Part shown: positions 7,233 through 63,852 of the stretch, in pieces
Position numbering within the stretch: the stretch's first letter is position 1
Layout of the letters: every line of letters begins with the position of its first letter
Assembly: GCF_900215725.1 (NCBI RefSeq)
Contig: NZ_LT962469.1
Span: 937,872 to 1,001,871, forward strand
DNA length: 64,000 nucleotides
Direction of reading: 5' to 3'
Origin: Ezakiella peruensis
GTDB taxonomy: Bacteria; Bacillota; Clostridia; Tissierellales; Peptoniphilaceae
Program-made: the position numbers and the translations under genes
The notes under the pieces: generated by a model
What the model saw: the letters and a program-made list of their open reading frames with translations, nothing else
Told to the model about the DNA's origin: nothing
The model's database searches: none

Positions 7233-8996
7233 TTAATTAATCTTGTCAACAATTTCTCCAATAAAATCTATTGTTGTTTTTATAAAGTCGCCTTCAATGT
7301 CTACGCCAAGTTTGCCTGCCCATTCTTTTGGTAAATAATGCCCGCCACTTGCCAAGACTTCCTTGTATGGTTTTAAAATATTTTCATTGCCAGCCATGAG
7401 CTCTTTGAAAACATTGGTGGCAATTGAAAGTCCAGCTTGATAAGTGAATGGATAAAGGCCCATATAATAGTGTGGCTGTCTGGTCCATGTGAGTTCAGCG
7501 CCATCGATTATTTCAACTTCATCGCCCCAGAATTCTTCAAGGACATTTCTAAAAATTCTGTTTAAAATTTTGTCGTTAACAGATTCACCCTTATCGATTA
7601 GTCTCAAGACTTCTCTTTGAAATACTGCTTCGATTCCGTGCGTTACGAAGTTGTGATAGTAAGTTCTTTCGATCATTTGTGTGTGAACCCAGTTCTTGGT
7701 CTCGTCGTCATTTGCATTTTTGATTAGGTAATTACTCATAATCATTTCATTCATAGTCGATGGACACTCGGACACATACATTGATGATTCTGTGTTTAGA
7801 TAGGCATTATTTCTCATAGTATATCTGCCGTGGCCTGCGTGGCCAAGTTCGTGGGCCAGGACAAAGACGTCTTCCATCTTGCCTGTCCAGCTAATGAGAA
7901 CGTATGAGTGAACATTATGGACTGATGCGCAGAAGGCTCCTGTGGTCTTGCCTTCGTTTTCTGCAAAGTCAATCCACCTGTTGTCTATATATTTTAAAGT
8001 ATCAGCTACATAATCGTCGCCAAGGATTTTTAAACCATCACTCAAATAGTCCTTGCTAGCTTCAATAGTAATATGTTTTTCAAATTCTGGCATGAGTGGA
8101 GCTTTTAAATCTGCATAGGTCATTTTATCCAACTTATATTTTTCTTTGATTTTCTTGGCATACTTTCTCATGACCTTTGGCAATTCGTTTTTAATTGTAT
8201 CGACGTGGTGTTCATAACTTTCCCTGGAAATATCTTGCATATCCAAGAGGTAATCAAAAACAGAATCAAAACCCTTGATTTCACTGAAAGCCTTTTCCAT
8301 TTTTAATTGGGAATTGTAAACGGTCGCCAAAGTTGATTGATATTTTCTCATCTCTTCATAAAAGACTCTATGAGCCTCTCTTCTTAAATTTGTATCTGAA
8401 TTTGCCTCGTATCTTTCTTCAAAAAAACCAAAGGTCATGGGATAAGTTTTTCCATTTACTTCAAAGTCAGGGAACCTGATGTCGTTGTTCTTGGTTATTT
8501 CAGAAATTTCGTATGGAGCCGCCCAGGTGTCTGAAAATTTTGATAGAGCATTTTCAACTTCAAAAGGAAGTTTTCTTGATTTTTTCTTTATGACTTCCCT
8601 TAAATATACAAAGGCGTCTGGAGATTTGTTCATGGCTTCTGATAAAATTTTTTCGTCTAAATTCATGAGCTCATCTTCCAAGAAAATTGTATTTTCTCTA
8701 ACTTCTTTGTTAACCTTGTTCATTTCCGTAACTAGCTTAAAGGCTTCCTCATCGGAACTGTCAACAGAATAAGTCAAGTTTGCATAGTGATTTGTATGGT
8801 TCAAGAACTCATACATCTCGTTTAAAATTTCTGTGACCTTGTTGATGTCGTTAGTAGTTTTGATTGTGCCTTTTAGGTCCTTAAGTTTTTTTGAAAGTTC
8901 TATAGCCGATTTGTTTTTACTTTCAAATTCTGCATAGTCTTTGGCCAAGTCGGTCAAATCCCAAGTGAGTTCTTTTTTTACATCTTGTCTCTTCAT
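7233..8996 (-). CDS. pepF: Oligoendopeptidase F (M3 metallopeptidase)
   Basis: 587 residues from the ATG at 8996, chosen because AAGGATGG lies just upstream and the ATG overlaps the asnB stop codon (ATGA), coupling the two genes. The catalytic zinc motif HELGH is present at about residue 380, with a Glu-rich helix further on. The family cleaves short peptides in the cytosol. It is the last gene of the pyr-asnB operon and would supply amino acids from imported peptides (opp operon at 24416-29996). No signal peptide is seen. Confidence 0.95.
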   Translation of the reverse strand: MKRQDVKKELTWDLTDLAKDYAEFESKNKSAIELSKKLKDLKGTIKTTNDINKVTEILNEMYEFLNHTNHYANLTYSVDSSDEEAFKLVTEMNKVNKEVRENTIFLEDELMNLDEKILSEAMNKSPDAFVYLREVIKKKSRKLPFEVENALSKFSDTWAAPYEISEITKNNDIRFPDFEVNGKTYPMTFGFFEERYEANSDTNLRREAHRVFYEEMRKYQSTLATVYNSQLKMEKAFSEIKGFDSVFDYLLDMQDISRESYEHHVDTIKNELPKVMRKYAKKIKEKYKLDKMTYADLKAPLMPEFEKHITIEASKDYLSDGLKILGDDYVADTLKYIDNRWIDFAENEGKTTGAFCASVHNVHSYVLISWTGKMEDVFVLAHELGHAGHGRYTMRNNAYLNTESSMYVSECPSTMNEMIMSNYLIKNANDDETKNWVHTQMIERTYYHNFVTHGIEAVFQREVLRLIDKGESVNDKILNRIFRNVLEEFWGDEVEIIDGAELTWTRQPHYYMGLYPFTYQAGLSIATNVFKELMAGNENILKPYKEVLASGGHYLPKEWAGKLGVDIEGDFIKTTIDFIGEIVDKIN

Positions 8997-10816
8997 AATC
9001 CCATCCTTTCGCACCAAACCATAAATACATAAACCGAGTAGAGCCTTCTGTGATTGCGAGCCCTGCCCTCCTTGTGATCATCGAGGAGTTGCATTAACTG
9101 GTCTCTTTTGAAAAACTCTGCGGTCTCTGGGCTGGTAAATACTTCTTTAAATTTATTATAAAAATTGTCTTCCTGTAGCCAGTACCTAAATGGAACTGGG
9201 AAACCTTTCTTTGGCCTGTTGTACCATTCCTCAGGTAGGTTTTCCTTGGCCGCCATCCTGAGGGCGTACTTGGTCAGGCCTGCTTGCAATTTTAAATCAT
9301 CTGTGAGCTTGCTGGCAACATCATAAACTCCTAGATCTAAAAACGGCATGCGAACCTCCAGGCTGTTGGCCATGCTCATCCTGTCGCCTTTTAAAATAAT
9401 ATCCTTTTGCATAAAGACATTTAGGTCAACCAGCTGTTTAGATTTAATTTTGCTGGACCCATTAAAGTATTTTTTGGTCTCTTGGCTGGCAGGATATCCA
9501 TTTTTATATGCCTTTGCAATAATTTCCTTTACCTGATCCCCATCTGCAATATTGGCTTCACCAATAAAGATTTCATTTTCATCCATAGCACCTTTTTTTA
9601 ATTTGTGTTTGATGCTTTGGTTAGGAATAATATTTGCAAGTCCGCCGTTAAACTTACGGAGGGCCCTTGGCAGCTTCATATATTTGCTTAGACTATCTGC
9701 AGTCCTATATCCATCGTAACCGCCAAAGAGCTCGTCTGCTCCCTCGCCTGATAAGACGACAGTTACTTCTTCACGAGCAAGCTTGGATAAAAAATAAAGT
9801 GGAATGCTTGATAAATTTGCCTGAGGCTCGTCCAAGTAATAAATAATATCGTCCAGCTTATTTAAAACCTCTGATGGATCAATTATCTCCGTCCGATTTT
9901 TGATGCCAAGAATTTCTGAAAGTTCTCTGGCATGGACGCTCTCGTCAAATTTGTTGTCAGCTGACTTAAAGCCCACACTAAAAGTATACTCAGGCATGGT
10001 AAGGGCCGTTATATATGAGGAGTCAATGCCCCCTGATAAAAATGTGCCCAGAGGAACGTCGGCGTTTTTGTGGAGGTCCACAGATTCCCTTACTGCTTCT
10101 TGGATTAAAGCAACGGCCTCATCTAATTCATTGATCTCGTCAGTTAAGTTAAAGGAAAAATATTTTTTAATTTTTATTTCTTTGCTCTCATTAAAATTAT
10201 TTACAATTCCTATGGACCCATGTGGTAGTCTCTTGATGTTTTTTATCATGGTATTGTCGCCAGCCATGTGTTGGAGCTCTAAGTAAGAAAATAGCTCACT
10301 AGCATTTATTTCTCTAGCCATATTTTTATAAGCGACTAAACCTTTGAGCTCTGATCCAAAGACCAGGGCCCCATCATCGGCGTATCCATAATATAAGGGC
10401 TTCATACCAAAATGGTCGCGAGCAAGTACCAGCTTGTTTCCGTCTATTATTGCAATGGCAAACATGCCGCGCAGGTGGTTTACAAAGTCCTCTCCCCACT
10501 CTTCATAGGACCTCAATACTACCTCTGTGTCAGATTCGGTTGAAAATTCGTGGCCCTTATTTTTTAATTGGTCTCTTAAAATTTTATAATTATAAATTTC
10601 CCCATTAAAAACAAGGCTTATGCCTCGGCTTTCATCAATCATGGGTTGGTTGCTGCGTGCATTTAAGTCAATTATTGACAGACGACAAAAGCCCAATGCA
10701 TAATTTATAGCGTGATCATAATTTACAGCATCTGGCCCTCGATGACCTATAGCCTTGGTCATAGCCTCTATATTATCTAAATTTTTATTATTAATAATTC
10801 CAACAAATCCGCACAT
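8993..10816 (-). CDS. asnB: Asparagine synthase (glutamine-hydrolysing)
   Basis: 607 residues. N-terminal Ntn glutaminase domain begins MCGFVGI, so the nucleophile Cys2 is intact; the synthetase domain carries the PP-loop LSGGIDSS near residue 260. It makes asparagine from aspartate, ATP and glutamine. It starts 2 nt after the preceding membrane protein gene and overlaps pepF by 4 nt. Aspartate is also the substrate of pyrB at the head of the same operon. The C-terminus retains the usual YNRPKKGFP region. Confidence 0.95.
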   Translation of the reverse strand: MCGFVGIINNKNLDNIEAMTKAIGHRGPDAVNYDHAINYALGFCRLSIIDLNARSNQPMIDESRGISLVFNGEIYNYKILRDQLKNKGHEFSTESDTEVVLRSYEEWGEDFVNHLRGMFAIAIIDGNKLVLARDHFGMKPLYYGYADDGALVFGSELKGLVAYKNMAREINASELFSYLELQHMAGDNTMIKNIKRLPHGSIGIVNNFNESKEIKIKKYFSFNLTDEINELDEAVALIQEAVRESVDLHKNADVPLGTFLSGGIDSSYITALTMPEYTFSVGFKSADNKFDESVHARELSEILGIKNRTEIIDPSEVLNKLDDIIYYLDEPQANLSSIPLYFLSKLAREEVTVVLSGEGADELFGGYDGYRTADSLSKYMKLPRALRKFNGGLANIIPNQSIKHKLKKGAMDENEIFIGEANIADGDQVKEIIAKAYKNGYPASQETKKYFNGSSKIKSKQLVDLNVFMQKDIILKGDRMSMANSLEVRMPFLDLGVYDVASKLTDDLKLQAGLTKYALRMAAKENLPEEWYNRPKKGFPVPFRYWLQEDNFYNKFKEVFTSPETAEFFKRDQLMQLLDDHKEGRARNHRRLYSVYVFMVWCERMGL

Positions 10817-38174: not shown

Positions 38175-38182
38175 GATATTGT

Positions 38183-38283
38183 TCATCAAGAGAGGCGGAG
38201 GGAATAGGCCCTGTGAAGCCCGGCAACCTAATTTTAAGGTGCCAAGTCCTACAGATTAATCTGAAAGATGATCTTATCTTTAA
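38183..38283 (+). promoter_or_regulatory. SAM-I (S-box) riboswitch aptamer
   Basis: Contains the S-box core: AAGAGAGG, GGCGGAGGGA, GAAGCCCGGCAACC and AAGGTGCCAAGTCC, in order, with a P1 helix TCATC/GATGA. S-box aptamers bind S-adenosylmethionine and turn transcription off. metK is a textbook target. A terminator follows at 38307-38328. Confidence 0.95.
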
Positions 38284-48792: not shown

Positions 48793-50322
48793 TTAATGTT
48801 TAAAATGACGCTTACCTGAGAATAGTAGTGCAAGTTCTAATTCATCAGCAGCGTTGATAGAATCTTTATCCTTAATGCTTCCGCCTGGCTCAACAATAGC
48901 TTTGACTCCGTGCTTGGCCAAAAGTCTAATGCAATCGTCAAATGGGAAGAAACCATCTGAAGCAAGGACTGCTCCATTTGCCTTGTCGCCTGCTTGTTTT
49001 AAAGCGGCTTCAACAGCAAAGAACCTATTTACATTGCCAAGGCCAATTCCAACTGTAGCTCCGTCCTTAGCCAGGACAACAGCATTTGATTTTGCAAATT
49101 TAACAGCCTTTAGGGCAAATTTAATATCTTCAAGTTCCTTATCAGTAGGTTGAACCTTGCTCATAACTGTCAGCTTACAATCCTCAGCCATGTCTCTCTC
49201 TTGAATGATCATGGTTCCTGGTACAATCTTCATATCCATACCGTCTTTTGGACCGTCAACTATTTCAGGAATTTCAATTAGCCTTAAATTTTTCTTTCTC
49301 ATTAAAACTTCTAGAGCTTCCTCGCTAAAGCTTGGCGCAATGATTACTTCAAGGAAAATCTTTACCATTTCTTCGGCAGTTTCCTTGTCTATTTCACGAT
49401 TAGCTGCGACAATTCCACCAAAGATTGACGATGTATCACATGCGTAGGCCTTTAGATAAGCTTCCTTAATGGTATCAGCCTCAGCTACTCCGCATGGATT
49501 TGTATGTTTAACTGCAACGATTGCTGGCTTTTCATAAAAGAGTTTTACCATTTCAACAGCTGCACTAGCATCATAGATATTATTGAAGCTTAACTCTTTG
49601 CCGTGAAGGACTTTTCCTTGGCAAATGCCTCCCACTTCTCCATTATACATATTGTATCTAAAAGCTTTTTGATGTGGGTTTTCGCCATATCTTAATTCAC
49701 CTTCCTTGTGGAAAGGAATAGTTAAGAGATCTGGGAATTCATCATCCATTTTTTCATTAAAGTATTTGGCAATCCATGCGTCATAATTAGCTGTTAGGTT
49801 AAAAGCCTTCTTTGCAAGATACATCCTGGTTTCCGGCTTTGTATCGCCACGTTCTTTTAATTCTTCGATAACTCTATCAAAGTCGCTGTTGTCGACGATA
49901 ATATTTGTATATTTGAAATTTTTAGCAGCGGCTCTGATCATACTTGGTCCACCGATGTCAATTTTTTCTACGATTTCATCATCGCTTGCATCTGAAAGAT
50001 ATGTGTTTACAAATGGATATAGGCTGTTTACAACTATATCAATCGGTTGAGCACCAAGATCTTTTAATTCCTTGACGTCTTTTGTATTTTCGCGTCTGTA
50101 CAAAATACCTGCGTGAACCTTTGGATGAAGGGTCTTTACCCTTCCATCAAAACATTCTTGAAAACCTGTGTACTCGCTGACATCCATAGCTTCAATTCCC
50201 TTGTCGTGAAGATACTTTAATGTTCCGCCTGTGGATAAAATTCCATAACCTAAATTAACAAGTTCTTTGGCAAAGTCTTCAATCCCATTCTTATCATAGC
50301 ATGAAAATAATGCTAGCTTCAT
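48793..50322 (-). CDS. purH: Bifunctional AICAR transformylase/IMP cyclohydrolase
   Basis: 509 residues. N-terminal IMP cyclohydrolase (STGGT near residue 31, FDGRVKTLHPKVHAG) and C-terminal AICAR transformylase with KHTNPCG near residue 270. Uses 10-formyl-THF, linking to fhs. Overlaps purN by 4 nt; GGAGG upstream. Confidence 0.97.
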   Translation of the reverse strand: MKLALFSCYDKNGIEDFAKELVNLGYGILSTGGTLKYLHDKGIEAMDVSEYTGFQECFDGRVKTLHPKVHAGILYRRENTKDVKELKDLGAQPIDIVVNSLYPFVNTYLSDASDDEIVEKIDIGGPSMIRAAAKNFKYTNIIVDNSDFDRVIEELKERGDTKPETRMYLAKKAFNLTANYDAWIAKYFNEKMDDEFPDLLTIPFHKEGELRYGENPHQKAFRYNMYNGEVGGICQGKVLHGKELSFNNIYDASAAVEMVKLFYEKPAIVAVKHTNPCGVAEADTIKEAYLKAYACDTSSIFGGIVAANREIDKETAEEMVKIFLEVIIAPSFSEEALEVLMRKKNLRLIEIPEIVDGPKDGMDMKIVPGTMIIQERDMAEDCKLTVMSKVQPTDKELEDIKFALKAVKFAKSNAVVLAKDGATVGIGLGNVNRFFAVEAALKQAGDKANGAVLASDGFFPFDDCIRLLAKHGVKAIVEPGGSIKDKDSINAADELELALLFSGKRHFKH

Positions 50323-50879
50323 TTGTCTCCTCCATTTCTAATAAATTCATTAATAGCCATACTGTAAAGCTTATGCTCAGTAGTTAAAACTCTCGCTGCA
50401 ATTTCCTCAGCAGTTTTTAATCCTTCAATAGATATAAAGGACTGCATGATTATAGGCCCTGTATCTATGCCGGTGTCAACAATATGCACACTCGCACCAG
50501 AATACTTATCATTAGCCTCTAAAACCATCCTGTGAACATTTATACCGTGACATCCCTTGCCCCCATATTTAGGAAGCAATGATGGATGTATATTTAAAAT
50601 TGGAGGACCTGACTTAACGAAATCGCTTGGAAGAATTTTTAAAAAACCAGCTAAAATTATAAAATCAACTTGCTTTTCTTCTATTATCTTTGCAATATTT
50701 TTAAAAAAGTCACTAGCAATTAACTCTGCTCTCAAGCCTAGATTTTTTGCCCTGTCAATTCCACCGCATTCACGGTCGGCATATACGCCCACAATATCAA
50801 TATCCTTTACATTTCTGGCGATGGATTCCATATTGGATCCACCACCTGAAATTAGAATTATAACCCTTTTATTATGCAT
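50319..50879 (-). CDS. purN: Phosphoribosylglycinamide formyltransferase
   Basis: 186 residues. GGGSNM near residue 11, NIHPSLLPKYGG with the catalytic Asn and His near 106-108, and Asp in HIVDTGIDTGP. Transfers formyl from 10-formyl-THF. The start overlaps purM by 22 nt. Confidence 0.96.
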   Translation of the reverse strand: MHNKRVIILISGGGSNMESIARNVKDIDIVGVYADRECGGIDRAKNLGLRAELIASDFFKNIAKIIEEKQVDFIILAGFLKILPSDFVKSGPPILNIHPSLLPKYGGKGCHGINVHRMVLEANDKYSGASVHIVDTGIDTGPIIMQSFISIEGLKTAEEIAARVLTTEHKLYSMAINEFIRNGGDK

Positions 50880-51889
50880 TTGTCTCCTTGACCTTTTTTG
50901 ATTTCTCCAAGTACAACCGGATTTTCTCCAGCAGCTTTCAGAGCTTCTAGAGCTGCATCCTTATCGTCCTTGGCAACAGCAAATATAAAGCCTATGCCCA
51001 TATTAAAAGTCGAATACATTTCTTTTGTATTGATGTTTGCCCATTCTTGCAAGAGATCAAAAATTGCAGGCTTTTTAATATCCTTTGTATCAACTTCTGC
51101 AAAAAGTCCATCAGGAATCATCCTAGGAATATTTTCATAGAAGCCACCACCTGTAATATGGCACATACCGTGTATTTTAACCTTGTCTTTTAAAGCAAAA
51201 ACTGCATCTTTATAAATTCTGGTTGGAGTTAAAAGTTCTTCTTTAAGAGGCTTATCAAGTTTATCGTAAACCTTATCCAAGTCAGCCTTTGAAACATCAA
51301 ATACAATCTTTCTAACCAAGGAATAGCCGTTAGAGTGAATGCCTGATGAAGGAAGTCCGATTAACACATCTCCTTCGCTAACTGCGTCATTAGTGATAAT
51401 TTCATCTTCTTCTACGCAGCCAACTGCAAAACCTGCAATGTCATACTCGTCTTCGCTGTAAAAACCTGGCATCTCTGCTGTTTCACCGCCTATTAAAGCA
51501 GCTCCAGCTTGAACGCAGCCATCGGCAACACCCTTTACGATTTCAGTCATCTTTTCTGGAATAAGTTTTCCTGTTGCAATATAATCCAAAAAGAATAAAG
51601 GTTCAGCGCCTTGGCATAAAATATCGTTAACGCACATAGCAACAGCGTCAATACCTATTGTGTCGTGCTTATCGCATAGGAAAGCAAATTTTAACTTGGT
51701 TCCAACACCATCTGTACCACTTACTAGCACTGGATTTTTGTAATTATTTAATTTAAATAATCCGCTAAAACCACCAATGCCACCCATGACCCCATCACGG
51801 TTTGTCCTCTGGATGTGCTCCTTAATCATTTGAACTTGACGGTAACCCTGCTCCTTGTCAACGCCTGCATCTTTGTAAGATAATGTCAT
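50858..51889 (-). CDS. purM: Phosphoribosylformylglycinamidine cyclo-ligase
   Basis: 343 residues from ATG 51889 (AAGGAGG upstream). DGVGTK and TGGGFYENIPRM motifs present. Makes AIR. It follows purF by 10 nt; an upstream ATG would lie inside purF and is rejected. Confidence 0.96.
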   Translation of the reverse strand: MTLSYKDAGVDKEQGYRQVQMIKEHIQRTNRDGVMGGIGGFSGLFKLNNYKNPVLVSGTDGVGTKLKFAFLCDKHDTIGIDAVAMCVNDILCQGAEPLFFLDYIATGKLIPEKMTEIVKGVADGCVQAGAALIGGETAEMPGFYSEDEYDIAGFAVGCVEEDEIITNDAVSEGDVLIGLPSSGIHSNGYSLVRKIVFDVSKADLDKVYDKLDKPLKEELLTPTRIYKDAVFALKDKVKIHGMCHITGGGFYENIPRMIPDGLFAEVDTKDIKKPAIFDLLQEWANINTKEMYSTFNMGIGFIFAVAKDDKDAALEALKAAGENPVVLGEIKKGQGDKCIIKGL

Positions 51890-51899
51890 ACAATCCTCC

Positions 51900-53240
51900 T
51901 TATATTGTCCCTTCTGGGAATACTCCTGTAAAACACGCCTCAGTAAATTCTCTGCCTCCAAGGGCTTTATATAATCCTTCTGTAGAAATAAATTCCAAAC
52001 TATCGGCACCAATCATATCTCTAATTTCATCTTTTGTGTGATTAGCTGCAATGAGCTCAGCTTTGGTAGGTGTATTCATAACTAAATTTGATGAATACTT
52101 AACCATTGGGCTTCCAATCCTCAAATGAATTTCCTTAACACCTACATCCCTAAGCATTTTAACAGTCCTCTTCATGGTTGTTCCCCTTACAATAGAGTCG
52201 TCAACCAAGACTATTCTCTTGCCTTCGATGTACTCTCTAAGAGGATTTAATTTGATCCTAACAGCTAGCTCACGCATTTCTTGGGTCGGCTGAATAAAGG
52301 TCCTGCCTACATATCTATTTTTGATAATACCCTCTGTATATTTAATGCCTGATTCTTCTGCATAACCAATAGCAAAGCTAATGCCACTATCAGGAGCTCC
52401 AACAACTAGGTCTGCATCTACCGGAGATTCTTGAGCCAATATTTTTCCTGCATTTCTTCTGACCGAGTAAATTGATTTGCCATCAATATATGAATCAGGT
52501 CTTGCTATATATACCATTTCAAAAACTCCAAGCTTCCTTCTAGATGGATCACCTTTTTGAATGACTTCTATACCATTTTCGTTAATCCTAACTATTTCAC
52601 CTGGTTCCACATCTCTGACAAATTCAGCGCCTATTGAGTCAAAGGCACAAGTCTCGCTTGCGACCAGGTATTTATCATTGAGCTTGCCAATTGAAAGTGG
52701 CTTTATCCCATAAAAATCTCTCACTGCATAAAGACTTTCATTGGCCATAATTATAATTGAATAGGATCCTTTTAACATCTTAACAGTATCTAAAATGGAT
52801 TGTTCAATATTTTCCTTGGTATTTTTTGCAAGCAAGGTCGCAATTACTTCAGTATCTAAAAAGGATTGGAACATATAACCTTGGTTTTGCAATTCTTCTT
52901 TTAGTTGAGGTGCATTTGAGATATGTCCATCGTGGACAATACCCAGGGCCCCTTGCCTGTAACCAGCAACTATTGGTTGCAAATAAGGGTAATCAAGACC
53001 CTCATCCTTGGCAGCCATTCTAACATGGCCAATGGCAATATTGCCAGCCAATCTTTCCATAATATCCTTTGGAAAAACATCATTAACCAAGCCTTGTGAC
53101 TTATGATAATCTATAAGACCATTGTTGTAGCAAGCAATCCCTGCTGACTCTTGGCCCCTGTGTTGGAGGGCGTAGAGCATATAATAAATATACTCTTTTG
53201 CACTACTATTTTTTGAATAAACACCAGCTACGCCGCTCAT
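51900..53240 (-). CDS. purF: PurF-type amidophosphoribosyltransferase lacking the catalytic Cys
   Basis: 446 residues. The phosphoribosyltransferase half looks intact (GAPDSGIS, KNRYVGRTF, VLVDDSIVRGTT). The glutaminase half begins MSGVAGVYS, so residue 2 is Ser (codon AGC) where the nucleophile Cys should be. Other site changes: GHVRMAA instead of GHVRYST-type, and VHDGHI instead of AHNGNL, so the oxyanion Asn is Asp. Cysteines that bind the Fe-S cluster in B. subtilis PurF are largely gone (KYSSN, FTEACF). The start codon directly follows the purE stop. The enzyme may use ammonia, or be inactive; which is not decided by sequence. Confidence 0.9.
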   Translation of the reverse strand: MSGVAGVYSKNSSAKEYIYYMLYALQHRGQESAGIACYNNGLIDYHKSQGLVNDVFPKDIMERLAGNIAIGHVRMAAKDEGLDYPYLQPIVAGYRQGALGIVHDGHISNAPQLKEELQNQGYMFQSFLDTEVIATLLAKNTKENIEQSILDTVKMLKGSYSIIIMANESLYAVRDFYGIKPLSIGKLNDKYLVASETCAFDSIGAEFVRDVEPGEIVRINENGIEVIQKGDPSRRKLGVFEMVYIARPDSYIDGKSIYSVRRNAGKILAQESPVDADLVVGAPDSGISFAIGYAEESGIKYTEGIIKNRYVGRTFIQPTQEMRELAVRIKLNPLREYIEGKRIVLVDDSIVRGTTMKRTVKMLRDVGVKEIHLRIGSPMVKYSSNLVMNTPTKAELIAANHTKDEIRDMIGADSLEFISTEGLYKALGGREFTEACFTGVFPEGTI

Positions 53241-53720
53241 TTATTTGCCTAGCTCCTCATTCATTTCGACTACTTGGTCCTTTAGCTCTTGCCTGTAAGC
53301 AGCGAGTTTGGGGGCTAGTTCAGGGTATTTCAAGGATAGCATTGAAACTGCAAGTAGACCTGCATTTTCTCCACCATCAATTGCAACTGTTGCAACTGGA
53401 ATTCCCTTTGGCATTTGAACAACTGAGAAGAGTGAATCAAGTCCACCCATTACAGATGTTTTGCCTGGAACACCAATTACTGGCACAGTTGTAATTGCAG
53501 CTACAACACCTGCTAGGTGAGCAGCCTTTCCTGCAATGGCAATAATTGCGTCGATTCCATTTTCCCTAGCTGTAGATGCAAATTCAATGGCTCTCTCTGG
53601 AGTCCTGTGAGCAGAAATAACTTCACAATGTGTTTCAATTTCAAACTTATCTAAAATTTTCTTTGCCCTTTCCATTACATCCCTGTCGCTAATGCTTCCC
53701 ATAATAATTGCTACTTTCAT
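53241..53720 (-). CDS. purE: N5-CAIR mutase (PurE class I)
   Basis: 159 residues. SAHRTP near residue 43 and GKAAHLAG near 72 mark a class I PurE, which needs PurK; purK is not adjacent. First gene of purE-F-M-N-H. GGAGGT precedes the ATG at 53720. No purC, purL, purD or purB is in the window. Confidence 0.95.
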   Translation of the reverse strand: MKVAIIMGSISDRDVMERAKKILDKFEIETHCEVISAHRTPERAIEFASTARENGIDAIIAIAGKAAHLAGVVAAITTVPVIGVPGKTSVMGGLDSLFSVVQMPKGIPVATVAIDGGENAGLLAVSMLSLKYPELAPKLAAYRQELKDQVVEMNEELGK

Positions 53721-55873: not shown

Positions 55874-57334
55874 TTACCAAGCGTGTTTAACGATTGGGTT
55901 TCTAGCAGCCTGCGTTTCATCAGGTCTGCAAATATCTGTATTGTGTGGAGCTTCTTTGAGCTCTTGTGGATTTTCCTTTGCAACCTTTGCAATATCTAAC
56001 ATTGCTCCTGCAAATGCATCCAGTGTTTCTAGAGATTCAGTTTCTGTAGGTTCAATCATTAGAGCCTCGTCAACAATTAATGGGAAGTAAACTGTTGGTG
56101 GGTGGAAGCCTCTATCGATTAATCCCTTAGCAACATCAAGTGTTGTAACACCTGACATTTCATGGTCTTTGAGTCCTGCTAGAACAAATTCGTGTTTGTA
56201 AGTTGTATCAATTGGTAGGTTGTATTCACCTTTTAATAAACTTGCCAAGTAGTTAGCGTTTAATACTGCTAATTCACTTGCCCTCTTAAGTCCGTCAGAA
56301 CCCATTGTCAAGCAGTATGTGTAACCTCTGACTAGGATTCCAAAGTGACCGTAGAAGTCTTTCATCTTACCAATTGAGTTTTCCTTATCGTAATTTAAGA
56401 AGTACTTATCTCCATCTTTTTCTACAATTGGAACAGGTAGGAATTCTTTTAAGAAGTCCTTGCATCCAACTGGGCCTGCACCTGGTCCGCCGCCACCGTG
56501 AGGTGTGGATAGGGTCTTGTGAACGTTAAAGTGGATAACGTCAAAGCCCATTTTACCAGGACGTGCCTTACCCATAATAGCGTTGGCATTTGCACCGTCA
56601 TAGTAGCAAAGTCCGCCAGCTTCGTGGATAATTGAGGTGATTTCCTTGATGTGCTTATCAAATAGTCCCAAAGTGTTTGGATTTGTAAGCATAAGTGCAG
56701 CTGTATCTTCACCTACAGCAGCTCTTAGAGCATCTAGGTCAACCAGACCGTTTTCATCAGATGGTACTTCAACTGGAGTATAACCTGCTACTGAAGATGT
56801 AGCTGGGTTTGTACCGTGAGCTGAGTCAGGTACAATAACCTTGTTTCTCTTGAAGTCGCCTCTTGATTCGTGGTACTTTCTGATTAACATAATACCTGTG
56901 AGCTCACCTTGAGCACCAGCAGCTGGTTGGAGAGTAACTTCATCCATGCCACTGATTTCTGCCAAGATATTTTGGAAATTATACATTAGTTCAAGAGCAC
57001 CTTGAACTTGTCTTGAATCTTGGTAAGGGTGCAAGCCAGCAAAACCTGGTAGTGCAGCCATTTCTTCATTTATCTTTGGGTTGTACTTCATGGTACAGCT
57101 TCCTAGTGGATAGAAACCTGTATCTACTCCGTAGTTTTTGTTGGAAAGATTTGTGTAGTGACGAACGATATCAACTTCGTTAACTTCTGGAAGTTTTGGG
57201 CATTCATCTGACAAATAATCAGCTGGAATAAAGTCCTTCAAATCTTTTTCTTCAACATCGCAAGCTGGTAATTGGTATGCAGTTCTGCCTGGAGTTGAAA
57301 CTTCGAAAATTAAACTATCATATTTTCTAAACAT
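55874..57334 (-). CDS. gcvPB: Glycine dehydrogenase (decarboxylating) subunit 2
   Basis: 486 residues. PLP Lys in [16 protein letters not shown] near residue 270. Split P-protein: this is the C-terminal half. It shares one nt with gcvPA and completes the glycine cleavage P-protein. Confidence 0.96.
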
Positions 57335-58671
57335 TATTTTACCTCCAAGTATTTAGCCAAAGCGTCCATTTCTTCTTTTGTACGCTTTTCAGTAACTGCA
57401 AACATAATTTCCTTATCCATGTCCTTGAAGAATCTATCTAGGGCTAAGCCACCGATAATATTCTTTTCATGGAGAGCATTGTATTGTTCTTCTTCATTAA
57501 TGCCTGTAACTACAAATTCTTTGAAGAAAGGTTGATCATATTTTAGCTTCAAGCCCTTATTTTCTAATTCTTTTTGTAGGTAGTGAGCCTTTTGTGTGCA
57601 AAGTTCAGCAACGCGTCTTAGGCCTTGTTTACCCATTACGCACATATAAATGCTGGCTGCCAAAGTATTTACACCTTGGTTAGAGCAGATATTTGAAGTT
57701 GCCTTGTCACGTCTAATGTGTTGCTCACGAGCTGTAAGTGTTAGTACGTAGCAGCGTTTGCCATTGTGATCAACAGTTTGACCAACAATACGGCCTGGCA
57801 TCTTTCTCATAAACTTTTCTTTTACTGCAAAGAAACCAAGAGATGGACCACCAAAGCTCATATTAACGCCCATGGCTTGGCCTTCACCTATAACAACGTC
57901 TGCACCATATTCTGAAGGTTTCTTCATGATACCAAGTGAAATAGGATCAACACTTACTACAAAGGATGTCTTTTTGCCTGTGTGGGCAATTTCGCCAAGC
58001 TTCTTAGCATCTTCAATAATACCAAAGAAGTTTGGATTTTGAACCATAACACAAGCTACATCATCGCTCATATTTTTTTCTAATTCTTCAGCATCTGTAA
58101 CCCCATCTTTTTGTGGAATTGTGATAACTTCCAAACCTTGTGCGTGTGCATAGGTGTCTAAAACCATTCTAGCACTTGGATTCAAAGTTTCAGAAACGAT
58201 AACTTTCTTTTTCTTTGAAACAGCAGCGCACATAATAGCTGCTTCAACAACTGCGTTTGAGTGGTCATAAACAGAAGCGTTTGCAACATCCATGCCAGTT
58301 AAATCACAGATCATTGTTTGGAATTCATAAATATATTGTAGGGTACCTTGGCTTACTTCTGGTTGATATGGAGTGTATGAAGTATAGAACTCCGATCTAG
58401 AAGTAATAGCTGGTATAATACTTGGAATATAGTGATCATAAATTCCTGCACCTAAGAATGAAGGGATAAAAGCTGGTGTAAGGTTTTTAGCAGCCATTCC
58501 ACCAACTATATTTCTAACTTCGATTTCTGATTTTGACTTATCGAAATTTAGATCTCCCTTTACCCTCATATCTTCAGGAATATCATTAAAAAGATCGTCA
58601 ATAGACTTTACGCCTATTGTATCAAGCATCTTCTTAATATCACTTTCCGTATGGGAAAGATATGGGTGCAT
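57334..58671 (-). CDS. gcvPA: Glycine dehydrogenase (decarboxylating) subunit 1
   Basis: 445 residues, N-terminal half of a split P-protein, with [10 protein letters not shown] near residue 74 and the SQGTLQYI motif. Starts 3 nt after gcvH. Forms a heterotetramer with subunit 2. Confidence 0.96.
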
Positions 58672-58674
58672 TAC

Positions 58675-59058
58675 TTATGCCTCCTCTGCAAGATATTTTT
58701 CGTATTCTTCAGCGTTCATTAGATCATCAGTAGCTGATGCGTCTTCTAATTTCATTTTTACAACCCATGCGTCGTATGGTTTTTCATTTAATAGTTCAGG
58801 AGCGTCTTCAAGTTCTTCGTTAACTTCTGTAACTACACCAGCCATAGGTGCAAATAAGTCACTTGCTGCCTTTGTAGATTCGATAGCTGCAACAGCATCT
58901 TCTACATCAAATTCATCATCTACGTCAGGTAGTTCAACGTAAACGATTTCACCTAGATGATCTTGAGCATAGTCACATAGGCCTACATATGCTTCTTCGC
59001 CTTCAATTTTGACCCATTCGTGGTCTTTTGTGTACATTAAATCTTTTTTTACTTCCAT
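58675..59058 (-). CDS. gcvH: Glycine cleavage H protein
   Basis: 127 residues, all-beta lipoyl carrier; the lipoylated Lys lies in AAIESTKAASDLFAP near residue 64. It shuttles the aminomethyl group between P, T and L. Starts 26 nt after gcvT. Confidence 0.97.
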   Translation of the reverse strand: MEVKKDLMYTKDHEWVKIEGEEAYVGLCDYAQDHLGEIVYVELPDVDDEFDVEDAVAAIESTKAASDLFAPMAGVVTEVNEELEDAPELLNEKPYDAWVVKMKLEDASATDDLMNAEEYEKYLAEEA

Positions 59059-59084
59059 TTTAATCCTCCTAAAATTTAATTAGT

Positions 59085-60197
59085 TTATTTGTTTTTATGT
59101 TGGTCGCCTCTAGCTTCTAAGAATTTCTTTGAAATAATCTTAGCTTCTACAGGTTTGTTCCTAACCATAACATCAAATGTGTTGCCAATACCCTTGTACT
59201 CTACATCTATCAAGGCGTTTCCAATTCTGGTTCCAAGAGTTGGTGATAGATAGCCTGTTGTAACATGGCCAATTTCTTTTCCATCTTTTTCAATCTTGTA
59301 TCCTTCTCTAGGAATACCTCTGCCTACTAGTTCAAATCCAACCAAAACTTTCTTTGGATCTTCAGCAATCTTTAATAGAGCTTCTCTTCCAATGTAATCG
59401 TTGTCGGATTTTCTATCTACAAAGTATTTAAAGCCTGATTCTACAGGATTTAATTCCTTTGAAATTTCCTGTCCATATAATGGAAGTGAAGCTTCAAATC
59501 TTAAAGTATCTCTGCAGCCAAGTCCGCATGGTTTCAAGTCAACATCCTTGCCAGCTTCCAAAACTGCATCCCAAACTTTAACTATGCCTTCGTTAGTTGT
59601 GTAGATTTCAAAACCATCTTCTCCGGTGTAGCCAGTTCTGGAAATCATACATTTAACTCCAGCAATTTCAACATCATCCTTGAAATAGAAGAACTTTATA
59701 GTATCTAAGTCAAGATCTGTAAGTTTTTGGACAACTTCTTGAGCCTTAGGGCCTTGAACAGCTACTTCGCCAACTTCATTGCTAACATTTGTAACCTTTA
59801 CATCAAAATCCTTAGATTGTTCTTTAATCCAATCAAAATCTTTGTCTACATTAGCAGCGTTAACTACTAGGTAGTACTTTTCATTATTATATTTGTAGAC
59901 TAAAAGGTCATCTACAACACCACCATCTTCATAGCACATAAATGTGTATTGAATTTGATTGTCTTCTTGATTAATAATGTTATTTGTCATCAGGTAGTTA
60001 ACAAATTTTTCTGCTTCCTTGCCTTCGACCCAAATCTCACCCATGTGAGAAACGTCAAACATTCCGGCTCTTTCACGAACAGCATTGTGTTCGTCCTTTA
60101 GACCTGTGTATTCTACAGGTAACATCCAGCCAGCATATTCAACAACATTGCCACCGAGTGCAACATGCTTTTCATAAAGCGGAGTCTTCATTGTCAT
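59085..60197 (-). CDS. gcvT: Glycine cleavage T protein (aminomethyltransferase)
   Basis: 370 residues. N-terminal EYAGWMLPVEYTG and the folate-binding GYTGEDGFEIY region. Transfers the methylene unit to THF. AAGGAGG is 8 nt before the ATG. An L-protein gene is not in the window. Confidence 0.96.
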   Translation of the reverse strand: MTMKTPLYEKHVALGGNVVEYAGWMLPVEYTGLKDEHNAVRERAGMFDVSHMGEIWVEGKEAEKFVNYLMTNNIINQEDNQIQYTFMCYEDGGVVDDLLVYKYNNEKYYLVVNAANVDKDFDWIKEQSKDFDVKVTNVSNEVGEVAVQGPKAQEVVQKLTDLDLDTIKFFYFKDDVEIAGVKCMISRTGYTGEDGFEIYTTNEGIVKVWDAVLEAGKDVDLKPCGLGCRDTLRFEASLPLYGQEISKELNPVESGFKYFVDRKSDNDYIGREALLKIAEDPKKVLVGFELVGRGIPREGYKIEKDGKEIGHVTTGYLSPTLGTRIGNALIDVEYKGIGNTFDVMVRNKPVEAKIISKKFLEARGDQHKNK

Positions 60198-62946: not shown

Positions 62947-63023
62947 TGGCGCGGCACAGAGGAATCGAACCCCTGACCTTTTGATTCGTAGTCAAACACT
63001 CTATCCAGCTGAGCTAGTGCCGC
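62947..63023 (-). tRNA. tRNA-Arg (ACG)
   Basis: Acceptor GCGGCAC, anticodon loop CTACGAA, encoded CCA. Anticodon ACG reads CGN Arg codons after A-to-I editing. Last tRNA of the cluster. Confidence 0.95.
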
Positions 63024-63026
63024 ATA

Positions 63027-63103
63027 TGGCGCGGCTAGGAGGATTCGAACCCCCGGCACACGGATTAGAAGTCCGTTGCTCTATCCTACTGAGCTATAGC
63101 CGC
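63027..63103 (-). tRNA. tRNA-Arg (TCT)
   Basis: Acceptor GCGGCTA, anticodon loop CTTCTAA, encoded CCA. Reads AGA/AGG. Confidence 0.95.
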
Positions 63104-63106
63104 AAA

Positions 63107-63180
63107 TGGAGCGGGTGAAGGGGATCGAACCCTCGCAACCAGCTTGGAAGGCTGGGGCTCTACCACTGAGCTACACCCGC
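63107..63180 (-). tRNA. tRNA-Gly (TCC)
   Basis: Acceptor GCGGGTG, anticodon loop CTTCCAA, encoded CCA. Reads GGA/GGG. Confidence 0.95.
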
Positions 63181-63208
63181 AAAGTTTGAATTTATAATTA
63201 TAAAAAAT

Positions 63209-63283
63209 TGGAGCGGAAGACGAGATTCGAACTCGCGACCCTCGCCTTGGCAAGGCGATGCTCTACCACTGAGCCACTTCCGC
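63209..63283 (-). tRNA. tRNA-Gly (GCC)
   Basis: Acceptor GCGGAAG, anticodon loop TTGCCAA, encoded CCA. Reads GGC/GGT. Confidence 0.95.
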
Positions 63284-63289
63284 ATAAAA

Positions 63290-63375
63290 TGGTGGAGGAG
63301 AGTGGATTTGAACCACTGAAAGCTAAGCTAACGGATTTACAGTCCGTCCCCTTTGGCCAACTTGGGTACTCCTCC
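63290..63375 (-). tRNA. tRNA-Tyr (GTA)
   Basis: 86 nt with a long variable arm, as for class II tRNAs. Anticodon loop CTGTAAA, encoded CCA. Confidence 0.95.
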
Positions 63376-63380
63376 ATAAA

Positions 63381-63457
63381 TGGCGACCCGGAACGGACTC
63401 GAACCGTCGACCTCCAGCGTGACAGGCTGGCATTCTAACCAACTGAACTACCGGGCC
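63381..63457 (-). tRNA. tRNA-Asp (GTC)
   Basis: Acceptor GGCCCGG, anticodon loop CTGTCAC, encoded CCA. Reads GAC/GAT. Confidence 0.95.
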
Positions 63458-63506
63458 TCATGCTTTCACATATATGCTAATGCATATACCTCCTATTAAA
63501 TTTAAT

Positions 63507-63582
63507 TGGTGGGCGGTATAGGGCTCGAACCTATGACCCCCTGCTTGTAAGGCAGATGCTCTCCCAACTGAGCTAACCGCCC
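63507..63582 (-). tRNA. tRNA-Val (TAC)
   Basis: Acceptor GGGCGGT, anticodon loop CTTACAA, encoded CCA. Reads GTA/GTG. Confidence 0.95.
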
Positions 63583-63603
63583 ATAGTTTTATATTAATAA
63601 AAT

Positions 63604-63678
63604 TGGTGACCCTACCGGGATTCGAACCCGGGATACCGCCGTGAAAGGGCGATGTCTTAACCGCTTGACCATAGGGCC
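63604..63678 (-). tRNA. tRNA-Glu (TTC)
   Basis: Acceptor GGCCCTA, anticodon loop CTTTCAC, encoded CCA. Confidence 0.95.
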
Positions 63679-63682
63679 TAAA

Positions 63683-63758
63683 TGGTTGCGGAGGCAGGAT
63701 TTGAACCTGCGACCTTCGGGTTATGAGCCCGACGAGCTGCCAACTGCTCCACTCCGCG
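63683..63758 (-). tRNA. Initiator tRNA-fMet (CAT)
   Basis: Starts CGCGGAG with an unpaired first base, three G:C pairs in the anticodon stem (CGGG-CTCATAA-CCCG) and anticodon CAT, all initiator features. Encoded CCA. Confidence 0.95.
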
Positions 63759-63777
63759 TCAAAGATAAAAGTTATAT

Positions 63778-63852
63778 TGGCGCTTGTGGTAGGGCTCGAA
63801 CCTACAGCCTACCGGTTAACAGCCGGTTGCTCTACCGTTGAGCTACACAAGC
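63778..63852 (-). tRNA. tRNA-Asn (GTT)
   Basis: Acceptor GCTTGTG, anticodon loop CTGTTAA, encoded CCA. First tRNA after 5S rRNA. Confidence 0.95.

Follow-up and report, generated by a model that had tools for sequence, protein, structure and literature searches.

The PurF protein of Ezakiella peruensis lacks the residues with which enzymes of its family hydrolyse glutamine. Judged from its own residues and from those of its relatives, it is most probably an ammonia-dependent enzyme, and it would represent the first stage of a shift, repeated and mostly nested, by which purine synthesis passes from glutamine to ammonia. In the textbook pathway three steps of purine synthesis depend on glutamine, and we describe below where the corresponding glutaminases appear to have been given up in this genus and in related bacteria. 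The gene was found in a window of 64,000 nucleotides, by which we mean the whole stretch of DNA that was analysed (Table 1).

The open reading frame at 51900-53240 (minus strand) scores 464 bits against the PurF profile TIGR01134, whose cut-off is 350, and 431.7 bits against the Bacillus subtilis PurF (1GPH). It belongs to an intact local cluster with the gene order purE-purF-purM-purN-purH. The TAA stop codon of purE is in frame with the abutting ATG of purF and the stop-to-stop frame of purF is exactly 446 codons long, so that no upstream start or propeptide could bring a Cys; an alternative start supplying this residue is therefore ruled out. The second codon encodes Ser at the sole possible start, as the first-pass annotation of this DNA had read it, and since Gly3 aligns with residue 2 of 1GPH, this Ser2 occupies the position of the catalytic Cys1.

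Alignments also confirmed two other replacements that had been pointed out in the glutaminase half, namely GHVRMAA instead of GHVRYST and VHDGH instead of AHNGN. With the roles of the pocket residues assumed from E. coli PurF numbering, Cys1 is changed to Ser2, Tyr74 to Met75, Thr76 to Ala77 and Asn101 to Asp104, while Arg73 (R74), Gly102 (G105) and Asp127 (D129) are kept; R74 and D129 are presumably binders of the amino-acid part of glutamine. Both the N-terminal catalytic Cys of Ntn glutaminases and the oxyanion-hole Asn-Gly are absent, the latter being replaced by Asp104-Gly105, and Asp104 is invariant in our first alignment (A1, 26/26 rows). With changes at the nucleophile, at the oxyanion Asn and also at Thr76, glutaminase activity is not expected. 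The PRPP-binding loop DDSIVRGTT is intact, with D347, D348, S349, V351, R352, G353, T354 and T355 invariant in alignments A1 and A2, and the gene sits between purE and purM, in agreement with the earlier view that it is not simply decayed. The four Cys that we take to be the Fe-S ligands of B. subtilis-type PurF had been described as mostly missing, and indeed only one of the four is left in the five own-genus sequences compared; five relatives compared from families f16 and f18 keep all four.

Table 1. Features of the window considered here, with positions counted from its first letter.
Feature	Positions	Strand	Description
Asparagine synthase	8993..10816	-	TIGR01536, 491 bits; MCG and FNGE motifs intact
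SAM riboswitch	38180..38274	+	81 bits
purH	48793..50322	-	NF002049, 677 bits
purN	50319..50879	-	TIGR00639, 133 bits, below the cut-off of 150
purM	50858..51889	-	TIGR00878, 460 bits
purF	51900..53240	-	446 aa; PRTase half intact, glutaminase half without catalytic residues
purF codon 104 (GAT)	52929..52931	-	Asp in the column of oxyanion-hole Asn101
purF codons 75-77	53010..53018	-	Met-Ala-Ala; Tyr-(Ser/Ala)-Thr in glutamine-dependent PurF
purF codon 2 (AGC)	53235..53237	-	Ser aligned with the catalytic N-terminal Cys
purE	53241..53720	-	TIGR01162, 202 bits; its stop codon abuts the purF start
gcvPB, gcvPA, gcvH, gcvT	55874..60197	-	Glycine cleavage genes, further upstream, near the purine genes
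tRNA genes	62947..63852	-	Ten consecutive genes beside a 5S rRNA truncated at the window edge

The genome is 1.67 Mb long and 99.96% complete, and a TIGR01134 search of all of it, of the kind that the first-pass annotation had called for, found this PurF and no second one. The other match (57 bits) is the asparagine synthase, which keeps its Cys and its Asn-Gly and serves as an internal control, showing that a glutamine-dependent class II enzyme has been retained in the same genome. When the genome was searched with PF00117, the matches were confined to GMP synthetase and a hydrolase-like protein of 238 aa; no CTP synthase and no CarA were seen.

To compare PurF proteins, we name each by its residues at the positions of the catalytic Cys and the oxyanion Asn, so that the window protein is Ser+Asp. 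A Ser+Asp PurF is encoded in all six genomes of the genus, its own included, and the other five proteins are 68-98% identical to it; the change is thus shared by other strains, a case that had been raised earlier as a condition, and an error in one assembly, or chance, is ruled out by the agreement of the six. Among the 80 best matches listed for named relatives, 76 are Cys+Asn and four are Ser+Asp (Ezakiella coagulans, a Tissierellia MAG, a Clostridiales MAG and a Tepidimicrobium MAG), the nearest named record among the matches listed being the Ser+Asp protein of Ezakiella coagulans DSM 20705 (73% identity). Within the family, 124 of 130 genomes gave a PurF-type match and six did not; the protein was read from 116 of the 124, and the 114 that could be scored comprise 34 Cys+Asn, 7 Cys+Asp and 73 without Cys. 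The 65 sequences from other families of the order (63 genomes) comprise 30 Cys+Asn, 27 Ser+Asp, 6 Cys+Asp and 2 others, frequencies that are not unbiased because these PurFs were chosen partly for a profile match beginning at position 2. In all, 181 PurF sequences were tabulated, two of which are fragments.

The Ser form is conserved across several genera and families: Ser+Asp accounts for most of the f16 and f18 sequences read, is also found in f5 and f13 and, outside the order, occurs in three genomes (G384, G316 and G412). A class-wide search returned, among the 30 best loci of 391 genomes, 9 Ser+Asp proteins (6 of them from the order) and 21 Cys+Asn proteins. Other lineages have Gly, Ala, Val or no residue at the Cys position. 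Thirteen sequences carry the Asp with the Cys still present, which indicates that the change from Asn to Asp can precede loss of the Cys, and eight have lost the Cys and kept the Asn. One genome (G221) was the only one seen with both kinds of PurF, a Ser+Asp protein inside the purine cluster and a Cys+Asn protein elsewhere (L167 and L168).

Several further forms of PurF were met during this survey. Seven genomes (G081, G078, G066, G091, G094, G093 and G090) encode a far more divergent Cys-less PurF of 477-509 aa (L118-L124), with HLGT instead of QHRGQ and scores of 153-178 bits to TIGR01134 in the two that were scanned; it is the best PurF match of these genomes and lies between purE and purM, clustered with purN, purH and purD. 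A third Cys-less type (L080-L087), from genera g3, g7 and g25 of the own family, has a frame starting near MFGIW and Val or no residue at the Cys position, and the PurL Cys is kept in all eight genomes. The own family also contains a class of short PurFs of 414-443 aa (L090-L092, L094-L098 and L100-L115), which lack a portion of the glutaminase half and have an intact PRTase half. Finally, purF is split by stop codons in G117 (L116) and G119 (L117), which belong to a genus with otherwise mostly Cys+Asn PurF.

Trees indicate that the Cys was lost more than once. On a quick tree of the PRTase half, with 140 rows, Cys and non-Cys had to be exchanged 10 times, and supported branches forced 5 of these changes; near-identical rows had been merged and 11 rows left out (the duplicate of the window protein, three fragments or broken genes and seven very divergent sequences). 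A more careful tree of 81 rows required 11 such changes (bootstrap range 10-12), and 9 of these are imposed by branches with support. The window PurF falls within a 50-row set without the catalytic Cys in the quick tree (SH-aLRT 97), and in the careful tree no set bigger than the own-genus pair, among sets of at most half of the rows, has support, which leaves the exact neighbours of the window PurF uncertain. Parsimony on the quick tree counts five changes from Cys to Ser and six from Asn to Asp against one from Asn to Ser, the Asp itself having changed again three times. Free parsimony also posits two returns from Ser to Cys, which we take to be extra losses instead.

The spread of this trait and the losses in two further purine enzymes among relatives lie beyond what the first-pass annotation could see. 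In FGAM synthetase (PurL), the C-terminal GATase_5 domain is a class I glutaminase whose motif is GICNGFQ. The Cys of this motif has been lost, mostly to Gly, in 44 of the 107 genomes read, which are not an unbiased sample as genomes with weak GATase_5 scores were given priority when PurL was retrieved. Sorted by PurF state, the loss was seen in 0/25 genomes with Cys+Asn, 5/7 with Cys and no Asn and 39/71 without Cys, and in none of the 4 genomes lacking a PurF state; it concerns all 28 genomes read from f16 and f18 and 14 of 70 in the own family. The window's own genome encodes PurD and PurL fused in one 1641-aa frame (L224, G000:C1:857290-862200) with the PurL Cys kept, and many other members of the family have frames of about 1630-1675 aa that match both PurD and PurL.

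For GMP synthetase (GuaA), 59 genomes were searched, 57 gave a match and 56 were scored (two had no match and one gave a fragment only): the Cys is kept in 29 and replaced in 11, and the glutaminase domain is shortened in 5 and deleted in 11, so that 27 of 56 genomes, again not an unbiased sample, have lost one or the other. The GuaA Cys is kept in all 10 genomes with a Cys+Asn PurF. When the 11 deletions and one shortened form were reread in longer DNA, no frame was found to be cut by the end of a stretch. In the domain-deleted frames the PP-loop is preceded by 24-47 residues, and the stretches of 3.3-3.9 kb from the 11 genomes held no part of a glutaminase beside them. A whole-genome PF00117 search of one of the converted genomes with a short GuaA (G238, a single contig) matched only CTP synthase, hence no separate GMP-synthetase glutaminase subunit was seen there, and none was recognisable by eye in a whole-genome search of G087, also a genome with the short GuaA. 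CTP synthase keeps its GICLGMQ motif and Cys in the four converted genomes read (G238, G245, G205 and G211), showing that glutamine use has not been given up across the board. In G219, a second, shorter GuaA frame (430 aa) lies beside an intact one, and this genome was scored as intact.

Losses follow the order PurF, PurL, GuaA in all genomes but G188, in which GuaA is shortened while PurL keeps its Cys. After correction for kinship, no opposite pair was found for the PurF/PurL or the PurL/GuaA pairing in 200 random pairings, with too few pairs for significance. The conversion would start with PurF, often from Asn to Asp before Cys to Ser, proceed to PurL, with the Cys mostly changed to Gly, and then reach GMP synthetase, by loss of the Cys or by shortening or deletion of the glutaminase domain. 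Judged by these motifs, the own genus is at the first stage, having lost only the PurF glutaminase: its PurL keeps the Cys, and GuaA keeps GICYGAQ in 6/6 genomes.

No glutamine synthetase (PF00120) was matched in the six genomes of the genus, in a search that was positive in 14/14 control genomes, and 74 of 130 genomes of the family had a match. By PurF state, glutamine synthetase was found in 27/34 Cys+Asn genomes and 39/80 others of the family (Fisher p 0.0034, raw), and in 18/18 and 7/34, respectively, in the rest of the order (Fisher p 1.1e-8, raw; 60 genomes searched, 52 with a PurF state), a link that is not significant once kinship is allowed for, where supported branches yield 4 independent pairs and the median p is 1. 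Counting against an ammonia-dependent conversion, 39 genomes with a non-Cys PurF do have glutamine synthetase.

According to the part of PMC3261824 available to us, which cites Mei and Zalkin 1989, E. coli PurF with Ser or Ala in place of the Cys has no detectable glutamine activity and still uses ammonia. Since this Cys is needed for glutamine and not for ammonia, the intact PRTase site of the window PurF should make 5-phosphoribosylamine from PRPP and free NH3, with no glutamine hydrolysis. From this precedent and the changed residues we infer the use of ammonia, and both support the earlier proposal that the enzyme would have lost glutamine hydrolysis and would use NH3. Comparable behaviour is described, in the portions of these reports that we could consult, for an archaeal GMP-synthetase ATPPase subunit, which works alone with NH4+ (Km 4.1 mM; PMC10526850), and for a Plasmodium glutaminase-domain double mutant without the catalytic Cys, whose Km for NH4Cl lies below that of the wild type (PMC9312489).

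The ammonia would probably be supplied by amino-acid fermentation. The glycine cleavage system, whose genes lie in the window, is ammonia-releasing. With much free ammonium, as we presume for these bacteria, a glutaminase would burden the cell by using up an amino acid in short supply. That the Ser copy of G221 sits in the purine cluster even with a Cys copy elsewhere speaks for an ammonia-dependent PurF; against it stand the conserved R74 and D129 of the window protein and the PurL and GuaA Cys of its own genome, which show that the organism is not glutamine-free. We also compared how well the two halves of PurF are conserved, and the identity ratio of the glutaminase to the PRTase half is 0.90 in the f16/f18 Ser lineage, as in the order's Cys enzymes outside the own family (0.90), against 0.82 for the 5 sequences of the own genus and 0.74 for the 23 of the short PurF class. 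These ratios indicate that the dead domain is kept in many lineages and is decaying in others; where kept, it is perhaps retained for structure, regulation or ammonia entry.

Other explanations have to be weighed against ammonia use. A glutaminase acting in trans, be it GlsA or the glutaminase half of another amidotransferase, might feed the dead PurF, so that glutamine would be an indirect nitrogen source, and the first-pass annotation had kept such a separate glutaminase as its second branch. We consider this unlikely: GlsA (PF04960) was matched in 28 of 38 genomes searched, including 15/15 of those searched in f16 and f18, and the own genome keeps the glutaminases of PurL, GuaA and asparagine synthase, but GlsA was found in 0/6 genomes of the genus by a search positive in 4/14 controls, which leaves that branch without a GlsA candidate in the genus. 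GlsA is moreover found in genomes with an intact PurF as well (G151, G217, G187, G157, G046 and G108), no glutaminase was seen among the listed purF neighbours, and free NH3 released by GlsA would enter the same pool as other ammonia. Ntn hydrolases with Ser as their nucleophile exist, and Ser2 could in principle make the window PurF a weak glutaminase with altered specificity, for which one could invoke the conserved pocket residues R74, G105 and D129 and the f16/f18 ratio, equal to that of Cys enzymes. This is highly improbable, given that Asn101 and Thr76 have changed too, that other lineages have Gly, Ala, Val or nothing at the Cys position and that E. coli PurF with this very substitution (C1S) is, in the available part of PMC3261824, devoid of detectable glutamine activity.

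It is just as hard to believe that purF is decaying toward loss in a strain living by purine salvage. The six family members without a PurF match, the broken genes of G117 and G119 and the somewhat relaxed glutaminase half of the own genus would fit this, as would the gene adjoining purH, which we assume to belong to a permease-like family (no NCBIfam hit at E 1e-20); yet the PRTase motifs are invariant, the surrounding purine genes are intact, the Ser form has persisted over several genera and families, and in the f16/f18 lineage not even the dead half is relaxed. Least credible of all is that the protein no longer makes phosphoribosylamine and instead aminates another group or transfers one: a second, far more divergent Cys-less PurF type does exist (L118-L124), but no PurF besides the window protein was found in its genome, which keeps purD, purL, purN, purM, purE and purH.

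Returning to the ammonia-dependent reading, a bolder version of it, which we regard as doubtful, is that whole lineages of the order make purines with no glutamine at any step, because the glutaminases of PurF, PurL and GMP synthetase have all been lost, and that the dead PurF glutaminase domain has turned into an ammonium port. The Asp replacing the oxyanion Asn would then capture NH4+ at the entrance to the former ammonia channel. The excess of Asn-to-Asp over Asn-to-Ser changes (six against one), the 13 Cys+Asp sequences, the invariance of Asp104 (26/26) and the unrelaxed domain of f16/f18 are consistent with such a port; the relaxed appearance of the own genus and of the short class, the eight Cys-less sequences that keep the Asn and the three further changes of the Asp argue against it.

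If our main reading is right, related bacteria have been caught at different stages of removing glutamine dependence, a process that took place repeatedly and mostly in one order. This removal would probably be tied to an ammonia-rich amino-acid fermentation, and in raw counts it goes with a lack of glutamine synthetase. A long-standing question thereby becomes testable, namely what makes amidotransferases retain glutamine and an ammonia channel at all, and under which conditions free ammonia is enough. Purine synthesis in converted bacteria should then be left unharmed by glutamine analogues, azaserine and DON among them, and annotation by family name would wrongly label such enzymes as glutamine-dependent.

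We found no literature on Cys-less PurF in this order, nor on a joint loss of the PurF, PurL and GuaA glutaminases, in a literature search that covered few subscription journals. A Cys-less PurF as such is already known: the available part of PMC3261824 describes, in Crenarchaeota, a Cys-less PurF' beside a normal PurF, with ammonia use as the authors' hypothesis. As far as that part goes, PurF' resembles the window PurF in lacking the Cys and in lying in purine gene clusters, but it is a second copy, often with Ala or Val, whereas the window PurF is the only copy and is Ser+Asp; unlike in the crenarchaeal case, PurL and GuaA have been converted too in relatives of the window PurF. With glutamine PRPP amidotransferases of the 1GPH and 1ECC type (TIGR01134), the window protein shares its whole length, its PRTase loops and its place in a purine cluster, and it differs from them by the missing catalytic Cys, the Asp for the oxyanion Asn and the lost Thr76, and from the B. 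subtilis type also by the loss of three of four Fe-S Cys in the own genus. The domain-deleted GMP synthetases recall the ATPPase of the archaeal two-subunit enzyme, which likewise has no glutaminase domain and uses NH4+ (from the accessible part of PMC10526850); Archaea have a separate glutaminase subunit for it, whereas the whole-genome PF00117 search of G238 shows none. Compared with the known large PurL carrying a C-terminal GATase_5, the domain order is the same in the relatives and CNGFQ has become GNGFQ, GAGF and similar, while the motif is intact in the own genus.
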